64,000 bases of DNA. Origin: Thermus parvatiensis (GTDB lineage Bacteria > Deinococcota > Deinococci > Deinococcales > Thermaceae). This document shows, piece after piece, positions 58,156 through 64,000 of the stretch. Under the pieces are notes generated by a model. That model saw only the letters and a program-made list of their open reading frames with translations. It made no database searches and was not told the DNA's origin. Numbering within the stretch: the stretch's first letter is position 1; each line of letters opens with the position of its first letter. The stretch is taken from the NCBI RefSeq assembly GCF_001535545.1, contig NZ_CP014141.1, forward strand, positions 1-64,000, in the 5' to 3' direction. Made by a program: the position numbers and the translations under genes.

Positions 58156-59330
58156 TTAGATCCCGTGCTGGTCCGCCCGTTGCTTCTCCACGGGAAGCCC
58201 CGTGGCCCCGTGGAAGGCCTCCACCTCCTCCAAAAAGCGGCGGAAGAGGTAGAGGGCATCGTGGGGGCCCGGGGCGGCCTCGGGGTGGTACTGGACGGAG
58301 AAGACGGGGTAGCGGGCGTGGGCCATGCCCTCGAGGGTCCCGTCGTTCAGGTTCACGTGGGTGGGGCGGAAGTCCTTGAGGGAGTCAATGTCCACGGCGT
58401 AGCCGTGGTTCTGGCTGGTGATCTCAATCTTGCCCGTCTGCAGGTTCTTCACCGGGTGGTTCGCCCCCCGGTGGCCGAACTTCATCTTGAAGGTCCGCCC
58501 CCCGCCGCCAGGGCCAAGAGCTGGTGCCCCAGGCAGATGCCGAAGGTGGGCAGAAGCCCCATGAGCTTCCAGATGGTTTCGTGAGCGTAGCGGGGCATGG
58601 TGGGGTCGCCGGGCCCGTTGGAGATGAGGAGGCCGTGGGGCTCCAAGGCCATGATCTGGTGGGCCGGGGTCTTCCCGGGGACCACGATGACCTCAAAGCC
58701 GAGGGCGGCCAGGTTCTCCACGATGGCGTGCTTGATGCCGAAGTCCATGACCACGATGCGCCGCCCCGACTTCAGGGTGGGCCAGGCGTAGGGCAGGGGG
58801 GTGGAGACCTCGGGGGTCATGTCCCGGCCGTCAATGTCCGTCCAGGCCTGGGCCTCCCGGCGGAGGGCCTCCAGCTCCTCCTCCGTGAAGGCGTGGTCGG
58901 GGGCGCCGAAGAGGCTCGCATGGGCGATGGTCCCCTTCAGGACCCCGCCCTCCCGGATCTTCCGCACCAGGGCCCTCGTGTCTATGCCCTCAATCCCCAC
59001 CACCCCGTAGAACTCCATGAACTCCCCGATGGTTTGCTGGGCCCGCGGGTTGGAGGCGATGCGGCTGAACTCCTTGGCCACAAAGCCCTTCACCCAGGGG
59101 CGGTTGGACTGCATGTCGTAGACGTTCACCCCATAGTTGCCCTGGTGAGGGTAGGTCATGACCACGATCTGCCCGTGGTAGCTGGGATCGGTCATGATCT
59201 CCTGGTAGCCGGTCTGGGCGGTGTTGAAGACCACCTCCCCCACGGTCTTTCCCCGGGCGCCGAAGGCGTAGCCGTGGTAGACGGTCCCGTCTTCCAGGAC
59301 CAAAACGGCGCGCTCCTTCACTCCAGCCAT
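58156..59330 (-). CDS. carA: Carbamoyl-phosphate synthase small (glutaminase) subunit, one frameshift
   Basis: CarA supplies ammonia from glutamine to CarB for arginine and pyrimidine synthesis. The start [40 protein letters not shown] and the class I amidotransferase nucleophile [16 protein letters not shown] are present. The His/Glu pair of the triad lies in [18 protein letters not shown]. One base is missing in the run at 58498-58503. Restoring it gives 391 residues. The start overlaps the hicA end by 13 bases. carB is not in the window. Confidence 0.95.
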
Positions 59331-61690: not shown

Positions 61691-61701
<11 letters not shown>

Positions 61702-62892
61702 GGCCCTCCCTCTCCACAAGGGCCCTCACCCGGAGGCGCAGGGCCTGGATCTTGATGAAGCCTTCGGCGTCCTTCTGGTCGTAGCCGCCCGCCTCGTCAA
61801 AGGAAACCAGGTCCTGGCGGTAGAGGCTCTTCGGGGCCTTCCTTCCCACCACGTAGACGTTCCCCTTGTAGAGCTTGAGCCGGGCCACCCCGGTGACGCT
61901 CTTGGCCACGTGGTCAAAGTAGGCCTGGAGGGCCTCCCGTTCGGGAGCGTACCAGAAGCCGTAGTAGACGAGCTCGGCGTACTTGGGGGAGAGCATGTCC
62001 CTTTGGTGGAGGACCTCCCGGTCTAGGGTGAGGCTTTCCACCGCCCGCCTGGCGTGGTAGAGGATCGTTCCCCCGGGGTCTCGTAGACCCCCCGGGACTT
62101 CATGCCCACGAAGCGGTTCTCCACCAGGTCCACCCGGCCCACCCCGTGGCGGCCTCCGATCTCGTTGAGCCTTTGCAGCAGGGCTGCCGGGGAGAGCCGT
62201 TCCCCGTTCACCGCCACGGGATCCCCCCGCTCAAACTCCACCTCCACGTACTCCGGGGCATCGGGGGCTTCCTCGGGGTCCACGGTCATGCGGAACATCC
62301 CCTTGGGGGGTTCGGCCCAGGGGTCCTCGAGGACCCCTCCCTCGTAGGAAATATGCAGGAGATTGGCGTCCATGGAATAAGGTTTCTCCTGGGTCACGGG
62401 AACGGGGATGCCGTGGGCCTCGGCATAGGCGATCATCTCCTGCCGGCCCTTGAAGCTCCACTCCCGCCAGGGGGCGATCACCCGGATGTCGGGCTTCAGG
62501 GCGTAGGCGGTGAGCTCAAAGCGCACCTGGTCGTTTCCCTTACCCGTGGCCCCGTGGGAGATGGCCTCCGCCCCTTCCTCCTCGGCGATCCTCACCAGGT
62601 ACTTGGCGATGAGGGGCCTTGCGATGGAGGTGCCGAGGAGGTAGTACCCCTCGTACACCGCCCCGGCGCGGAACATGGGGAAGACGAAGTCCCGCACGAA
62701 CTCTTCTCTCAGGTCCAGGGCGATGGCCTTGGAGGCCCCGGTCCTGAGGGCCTTTTGCCGGGCCTCCTCCACCTCCTCCCCCTGGCCGATGTCCGCGGTG
62801 AAGGCGATGACCTCGGCCTTGTAGGTTTCCTTGAGCCACTTGAGGATGATGCTGGTATCCAGCCCGCCGGAGTATGCCAAGACGATCTTCAT
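61691..62892 (-). CDS. argG: Argininosuccinate synthase, one frameshift
   Basis: ArgG joins citrulline and aspartate with ATP. The PP-loop is [60 protein letters not shown] and [20 protein letters not shown] follow. One base is missing in the C run at 62070-62074. Restoring it gives the C-terminus [20 protein letters not shown]...LVEREGHGA and 400 residues. The ATG at 62892 is preceded by GGGAGGG and TATACT. It is the first gene of the arginine operon. Confidence 0.96.
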
Positions 62893-62901
62893 GTCCCTCC
62901 C

Positions 62902-62940
62902 AGTATAGCCCCTCGAGGGGGCGTGCATAAGTATACATGA
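62902..62940 (-). promoter_or_regulatory. Promoter region of argG, possible Arg-box-like sequence
   Basis: TATACT (62902-62907, minus strand) lies nine bases from the ATG. An ATGTATACTTATGCA stretch farther upstream is a loose inverted repeat and could be an ArgR site. Confidence 0.45.
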
Positions 62941-62965
62941 ACAAACCCGCGCCATAACCTACCCC

Positions 62966-62994
62966 TTGACGCCCTCCCACAGCAAGGTTAGGAT
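62966..62994 (+). promoter_or_regulatory. Promoter of the small ORF and lipoprotein
   Basis: TTGACG (62966-62971) and TAGGAT (62989-62994) are exactly 17 bases apart. The expected start of RNA near 63001 leaves about 25 bases before the small ORF. Confidence 0.75.
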
Positions 62995-63026
62995 TGGCCC
63001 CGGAAACTGCGAGAAGGAGGTGCTGT

Positions 63027-63092
63027 ATGACCCACACCTATAGGCCTAGGCCCCGGTCGCAAAGGATCCCTTTCGTTAGGGGTGATTTATGA
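63027..63092 (+). CDS. Small upstream ORF (21 residues) overlapping the lipoprotein start
   Basis: AGAAGGAGGTGCTGT gives a strong ribosome binding site before this ATG. The peptide is MTHTYRPRPRSQRIPFVRGD plus Leu, with five Arg in 21 residues. Its TGA overlaps the lipoprotein ATG (ATGA), so reading it would couple the two. I do not recognise the peptide. It may be a leader peptide or only a coupling device. Confidence 0.5.
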   Translation: MTHTYRPRPRSQRIPFVRGDL

Positions 63093-64000
63093 GAAAAGCG
63101 TTAGGGCTCGGGCTGTTACTGGGCGCCCTCCTCCTGGCGGGCTGCGGCCAGGACACCGTCAAGCCCAGCGTCACCATCACCGCCCCCCAGGACGGCGCCA
63201 CCGTCAACCAGGACACCCTCACCGTCCAAGGCACCGCCCAGGACAACGTCCGCGTAAACCGGATCACCTACCAGCTCAACAACGGCCAGGAACAAGAGGT
63301 CCCCATCACCCCAGGAACCTCCGTCAACTTCGCCTTCACCCTCACCCTCCAGCAGGGCCAAAACACCATCACCGTCCACGCCTACGACCAGGCCAACAAC
63401 AAGGGTAGCGCCACAGTCCAGGTAACCTACGACCCGACTCCAGCCCCAGATACTCAAAAGCCCACCATCACCATCACCCAACCCCAGGACGGAAGCACGG
63501 TCAACACCCCCCAGGTCACCGTCCAAGGCTCCGCCCAGGACAACACCCAGGTGGCCCGCATCACCTATCAACTCAACGGCGGCCAGGAACAGCAGATCAC
63601 CATCACCCCCGGACCAAACGTCTCCTTCCAGTTCCAAGTCACCCTCCAGCAGGGCCAAAACACCATCACCGTCCACGCCTACGACCAGGCCAACAACAAG
63701 GGTAGCGCCACAGTCCAGGTAACCTACGACCCGACTGCTGTACACAACCTTTCTGGTACGGTGGTCAGCGAGTACGCCGGCGGGCCCGTGGCCGGAAGCA
63801 CGCTTAAGCTCTACAAAAACGGCAACCTGGTGGCCACGACCCTCTCCGGAGCCGATGGGAGCTTCAGCTTTGGCACCCTGGCCCCCGGCACCTACCGCCT
63901 CGAGGCCCAGAAGCCCGGCATGGCGGGAAGCGTTCTGGAGGGCATCCGGGTGCCGGAGATGACCAGCGTCACCCTCATTCAGCGCCAGGCCTTTGACGCC
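63089..64000 (+). CDS. Lipoprotein with repeated Ig-like domains, cut by the window end
   Basis: The signal peptide [20 protein letters not shown] ends in a lipobox (LAGC), so the protein is lipid-anchored. Two Ig-like repeats of about 99 residues follow (VTITAPQDGATVNQDTLTVQ and ITITQPQDGSTVNTPQVTVQ), each ending QGQNTITVHAYDQANNKGSA. A carboxypeptidase-regulatory-like domain comes next (NLSGTVVSEYAGGPVAGSTL, GADGSFSFGTLAPGTYRLEA). Beyond the window a catalytic or further adhesive part may follow. The frame is open to position 64000. It likely sits on the cell surface. Confidence 0.82.
   Translation, partial: MRKALGLGLLLGALLLAGCGQDTVKPSVTITAPQDGATVNQDTLTVQGTAQDNVRVNRITYQLNNGQEQEVPITPGTSVNFAFTLTLQQGQNTITVHAYDQANNKGSATVQVTYDPTPAPDTQKPTITITQPQDGSTVNTPQVTVQGSAQDNTQVARITYQLNGGQEQQITITPGPNVSFQFQVTLQQGQNTITVHAYDQANNKGSATVQVTYDPTAVHNLSGTVVSEYAGGPVAGSTLKLYKNGNLVATTLSGADGSFSFGTLAPGTYRLEAQKPGMAGSVLEGIRVPEMTSVTLIQRQAFDA
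63343..63736 (+). repeat. Two exact 97-base copies within the lipoprotein gene
   Basis: Positions 63343-63439 and 63640-63736 are identical and 297 bases (99 codons) apart. They encode the end of each Ig-like repeat. Identity at DNA level points to recent duplication or gene conversion. Confidence 0.85.

Follow-up and report, generated by a model that had tools for sequence, protein, structure and literature searches.

In a bicistronic design (BCD), a first SD (SD1) precedes a short leader, a second SD (SD2) lies inside that leader, and the stop codon of the leader overlaps the start codon of the gene. Attenuation leader peptides are also encoded by short open reading frames (ORFs), with several codons for one amino acid. 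Leader ORFs have reportedly raised the expression of GC-rich Thermus genes in older work, which the present literature search did not find. The BCD is an engineered system mentioned in PMC5995908 and in a 2025 review (PMC12548453) that also deals with ribosome-delivering uORFs, MIRUs and engineered use. In mycobacteria, small ORFs coupled to the next gene through an RTGA overlap have been proposed to deliver ribosomes, and in an example it is the position that is conserved and not the peptide (Shell et al., 2015; PMC4633059). Leader genes acting as ribosome antennas, with a spacing peak of 10-11 bp, have been proposed in a range of organisms that includes Deinococcus-Thermus (Korolev et al., 2016; PMC4833913). 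Leaders overlapping the gene were excluded from that study, which may therefore have missed SD-driven ATGA leaders in Thermaceae; attenuation leader peptides appear there as background. The available sections of PMC12340547, on leaderless genes in Deinococcus-Thermus, do not treat the overlapping leader layout, and no description of SD-driven ATGA leaders in Thermaceae was found in the literature.

The leader considered here lies in a 64,000-nucleotide window of Thermus parvatiensis (contig NZ_CP014141.1, the whole stretch of DNA analysed) and joins the coupled small ORFs already described; the kind is known and the case is new. As in the RTGA class of Shell et al. (PMC4633059), an unannotated small ORF has a TGA stop overlapping the next RTG start, and we place the putative cistron among the RTGA-coupled small ORFs with respect to overlap class only. 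Unlike that set, as far as it is described in the source, which consists mainly of leaderless transcripts, the Thermus leader has a predicted 5' UTR of about 26 nt and a strong SD; its layout is also rare in the samples and concentrated at one operon, unlike that of the mycobacterial small ORFs. It resembles the leader genes of Korolev et al. (PMC4833913) in being a short ORF near a gene and in its proposed role of raising initiation by reinitiation, and differs from them in overlapping the gene by 4 nt. The mycobacterial MIRU of the 2025 review (PMC12548453) likewise couples a small ORF to a gene, at a spacing of -4 nt. MIRUs are repeated mobile units, whereas a DNA search of the T. parvatiensis genome found the leader region unrepeated, save for protein-repeat matches. 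The layout of the BCD is shared; the BCD is engineered, and the leader would be its natural counterpart. With attenuation leader peptides it has in common a short leader ORF and several codons of one amino acid, but it lacks a codon run, codon conservation, a biosynthetic gene downstream and a spacer for a terminator.

The leader ORF, MTHTYRPRPRSQRIPFVRGDL (63027-63092, forward strand), begins with ATG and comprises 21 codons plus the stop. Its length, its five Arg codons (four AGG and one CGG) and the overlap of its stop with the lipoprotein ATG are exactly as claimed in an earlier note on this DNA. Upstream lies SD1, AAGGAGGTG (63014-63022, forward strand), all 9 nt of which complement the tail of the T. 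parvatiensis 16S rRNA (GGCTGGATCACCTCCTTT, present twice in the genome), at a distance of 6 nt from the leader ATG in the GGAGG register. The window contains 20 copies of this 9-mer, with 1.0 expected; the SD alone is thus weak evidence, and it stands out only when combined with the ATG and the ORF. SD2, GGTGAT (63081-63086, forward strand), belongs to the lipoprotein gene and lies within the leader ORF, and the ATGA at 63089-63092 (forward strand) is where the lipoprotein start codon shares 4 nt with the leader stop. A sigma70-like promoter, TTGACG-N17-TAGGAT (62966-62994, forward strand), is proposed from its consensus match only (1 found against 0.1 expected from shuffles). It predicts a transcript start near 63001, about 26 nt 5' of the leader ATG, and the leader would therefore be the first ORF of the mRNA. 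A short stem-loop, CCCTTTCGTTAGGGG (63068-63082, forward strand), within the leader overlaps part of SD2 and is flagged as a terminator-like but weak element; the stem has 5 pairs, with 1 such element found and 0.4 expected from shuffles. The fold of the leader is ordinary (z 0.15), and a scan of 62700-63400 against Rfam 15 returned 0 matches at E up to 1.

The 5' part of the lipoprotein gene (63089-64000, forward strand) has the lipobox LAGC and continues beyond the window end. The protein contains Ig-like and carboxypeptidase-regulatory-like domains, and it resembles the DRA0282 family and the dentilisin subunit PrcA in NCBIfam, both below threshold. The next gene encodes a fervidolysin-type prodomain, hence its label as a subtilase. 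This downstream protease gene is found in 11 of the 12 Thermus genomes with the lipoprotein (it was unmatched in G003) and in 0 of the 15 others. In T. parvatiensis the lipoprotein frame is broken just beyond the window end (L051, ~2065-2100), with 571 codons followed by another frame; the open frames of the relatives' lipoproteins have 600-720 codons.

Lipoprotein homologs were identified by protein search in 12 of 27 Thermus genomes, T. parvatiensis included; its named relatives are T. arciformis, T. altitudinis, T. caliditerrae and T. igniterrae. Nine of the 12 are preceded by an ATG mini-ORF of 13-22 codons that has its own SD and ends in an exact ATGA overlap. The leaders have 21 codons in both T. 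parvatiensis and T. arciformis (G013), 19 in G009 and G019 (MERHRPSDLRITFLTKEVL), 22 in G024 (MERHRPSGPQATYLKNPIKEAL), 14 in G004 (MAYRYPRFCGEVAL) and in G016 (MPIGFRFRKREVNL), 13 in G018 (MLRNPKASKEEGL) and 18 in G021 (MMKKWPMERKKKVLGGSL), which has the weakest SD of the set. The SD of the lipoprotein gene is located within the leader, which fits coupling. Most homologs have a promoter placed as in T. parvatiensis. Where a -35/-10 pair was found at a locus with a leader, the predicted start lies 23-43 nt 5' of the leader ATG; G004, G021 and the sister-genus genome G044 each have a single alternative pair that departs from this. An apparent leader match in G006 (L029) was rejected, as the sequence belongs to an unrelated place.

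The three remaining homologs count against coupling. Upstream of the lipoprotein, G001 lacks an SD-preceded overlapping ORF and G023, where the region is near a contig end, lacks a leader; in G003 the upstream ATG, which has an SD, shares the reading frame of the lipoprotein and is fused to it instead of opening a separate leader. Loss of the frame with the lipoprotein kept, which the earlier note held to tell against its reading if found in close relatives, thus occurs in two of the 12 genomes, beside the in-frame fusion. None of these three is the closest relative, T. arciformis, which keeps the frame. The G003 sequence (L053 391-460, reverse strand) may encode a 23-residue N-terminal extension of the lipoprotein.

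A wider search of 121 genomes found core lipoprotein homologs in 31, and upstream regions were taken from the homolog rows with a locus. A tenth leader, MVGSLAGGHKGGYI, also with ATGA, was found in the sister genus (G044). In each of G045, G050 and G065, a TTG frame of 12 codons closes with GTGA; its SD is weak, being AGGAG in two of them and shorter of a match in the third. G048, which is close to but outside Thermus, has no leader. In more distant families, an SD-preceded ATG leader ending in ATGA is absent except for a weak case in G032 (L141), where a 41-codon ORF with a lipobox-like motif lies ~122 nt upstream and has an ATGA overlap with the lipoprotein gene. Distal SD-like motifs were seen by eye 60-95 nt upstream in the distant families. 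A distal SD 6-mer precedes 51 of 246 genes in the Thermus genus samples, and given this frequency nothing is concluded from those motifs.

The background frequency of the layout was estimated in 1.2 Mb of sequence sampled from three Thermus genomes, roughly one fifth of each, with genes predicted by a home-made codon-score method whose gene finding and start choices are approximate. The scan rule called for an ATG leader of 8-30 codons, an SD match of at least 6 nt and an exact 4-nt stop/start overlap, with generous gene starts; it recovers all ten known leaders, compared with six of ten for an earlier, less sensitive rule. It returned 4 hits in 1158 genes (0 of 416 in T. parvatiensis, 2 of 375 in G010 and 2 of 367 in G021), and just one of these relies on the chosen gene start and precedes a gene with a good SD of its own. 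Of 328 genes with sufficient room upstream, only 6 have an SD-preceded ATG at -75 to -30, and 0 of those ORFs end at ATGA. The comparison of 9/12 with 4/1158 gives p ~1e-17 (5e-12 for 6/9 sequence types), values that are guides and not exact, since homologs share ancestry. A Thermus-wide habit of ATGA leaders is rejected on the 4 hits in these 1158 sampled genes. A credible background leader, MEFPRGIIPRYAGLNERRWR (L087 4365, forward strand, G010), has a GTGA overlap with a gene judged by eye to be dehydrogenase-like.

Termination-reinitiation at the leader cistron probably supplies the lipoprotein-subtilase operon with ribosomes. This reading starts from three observations, namely the sequence anatomy, the recurrence before the lipoprotein gene and the rarity elsewhere, and would entail that the leader is translated, that ribosomes reinitiate and that more lipoprotein is made. 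In the proposed mechanism, the lipoprotein-subtilase mRNA would open with the leader as a short cistron. Ribosomes captured by the strong SD1 would translate its 21 codons and terminate at the UGA of AUGA. Reinitiation would then take place on the overlapping AUG, aided by SD2, which lies within the leader and would be cleared by the moving ribosome. The peptide would be mostly a by-product, with selection acting on the SD, the open frame and the ATGA overlap. The suggestion in the earlier note that the ORF might simply deliver ribosomes is supported by the recurrence of a strong SD, a short ORF and ATGA in nine of 12 Thermus genomes despite a changing peptide.

Predicted accessibility at 65 °C may lend coupling mild support at best, with SD1 more open than SD2 at 8 of 10 loci. 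The burial of SD2 is not unusual in comparison with 150 background genes, which leaves a buried SD2 unsupported as the cause of coupling. Given the unremarkable burial of SD2 and fold of the leader, the lipoprotein might also be translated independently.

Across the ten leaders, the layout is kept and the peptide is not; no peptide motif common to all of them was found. The number of Arg residues is 5 in T. parvatiensis, 4 in T. arciformis, 2 in G004, 3 in each of G009 and G019, 2 in G024, 3 in G016, 1 in each of G018 and G021, and 0 in G044. Conservation therefore extends to the ORF layout and not to the Arg codons, both of which the earlier note had proposed to compare among relatives. The leaders of T. 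parvatiensis and T. arciformis differ at 3 of 62 nt. All three codon changes are non-synonymous (0 synonymous), one of them replaces an Arg, and the frame is intact; the first 330 nt of the lipoprotein gene have 11 synonymous and 8 non-synonymous codon differences. Between the G009/G019 leaders and that of G024 there is a 9-nt length change that keeps the frame. Charged residues near the leader ends may partly derive from the purine-rich SD2. As in the pairs of Shell et al. (PMC4633059), the Thermus layout is thus conserved beyond the peptide, and one pair of leaders stands partly against this likeness: G009 and G019 are identical at 56 of 56 nt in the leader, with 249 matches in the first 300 nt of the gene. 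Their identity hints at some constraint that may act on the sequence itself, contrary to a pure by-product view.

This constraint bears on a conditional form of coupling, in which the coupling itself would be regulated and stalling or drop-off in the leader, whatever its cause, would lower the output of lipoprotein and protease, or in which the peptide would have a lineage-specific role. We consider this unlikely. It would fit the G009/G019 identity, the MERHRPS start common to the G009, G019 and G024 leaders and the confinement of the leader to one operon in the sampled genomes; the leaders as a group have no shared peptide motif, conserved structure, Rfam family or known signal that would go with such a gate.

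An improbable alternative is that the ORF has no function and either arose by chance or is left over from a longer N-terminus. DNA of ~68% GC (0.677) is rich in open frames, the upstream ATG of G003 shares the lipoprotein frame, and G001 and G023 manage without a leader. Chance agrees poorly with the excess over background genes and with the exact ATGA in 10 of 10 leaders of differing length and sequence. When the 87 nt upstream were shuffled, only 32 of 5000 shuffles gave an ATG leader of 8-30 codons with an SD of at least 6 nt that ended at ATGA.

Returning to ribosome delivery, a broader claim can be advanced tentatively and with more doubt than belief: that one Thermaceae lipoprotein-protease operon has been under lasting selection for translation via a freely changing mini-cistron, with the coupling possibly setting or gating output under some condition. 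If true, a natural bicistronic design driven by an SD would have become fixed at one gene family and would not be a genus-wide habit. The Thermus leaders provide a clean comparative case in which selection can keep a coupled leader layout while the peptide drifts, and the layout may help to express GC-rich genes in Thermus.

The Arg content of the T. parvatiensis leader is mildly high (P = 0.019 for at least 5 Arg in 20 at the genomic Arg frequency of 0.080), and four of its five Arg codons are AGG, which accounts for 0.19 of Arg codons in the genome sample. From these codons and the divergent argG, the earlier note had raised the idea of arginine sensing, in which ribosomes stalling at the leader Arg codons would report arginine supply and alter expression of the lipoprotein operon. 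This is very improbable, as the Arg counts fall from 5 to 0, the codons are scattered without a run, the closest pair shows only non-synonymous changes including the loss of an Arg, the downstream genes encode an Ig-like lipoprotein and a protease and not arginine functions, the overlap of leader stop and gene start leaves no room for an attenuator between them, the Rfam scan was empty and the only terminator-like stem is the one of 5 pairs inside the leader, and two genomes without an adjacent argG retain the leader. Nothing to the point on arginine control in Thermus was found in the literature, and an Arg-rich mini-ORF beside argG need not be an arginine sensor.

The leader is kept in both genomes in which argG no longer adjoins the lipoprotein, namely T. 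arciformis and G018; in the latter, ~2.3 kb with another ORF lies between the two genes. The lipoprotein promoter of T. arciformis is on one contig and its argG side on another, each meeting foreign sequence at CCTACCCC. The junctions (L056 1-222, L057) show this 8-bp repeat and the inverted ends GGGCTTGCC/GGCAAGCCC, and an insertion element just upstream of the -35 box most likely separates argG from the lipoprotein there. On the argG side of the intergenic region in T. parvatiensis, a conserved stretch holding TGCATAAGTATACA (62899-62937, unstranded) may be an argG promoter or operator. It was matched by DNA search in 20 of 25 Thermus genomes, 13 of which had no lipoprotein match, and it therefore belongs to argG and not to the leader. 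The ORF named argG in the earlier note is indeed the divergent neighbour, with a frame that is broken in the assembly: it is split into 62023-62955 and 61691-62041 (reverse strand) in different, overlapping frames, through either an assembly error or a real frameshift. An analogous frame split is seen at 58156-58485 / 58482-59330 (reverse strand), in an ORF resembling the small subunit of carbamoyl phosphate synthase.
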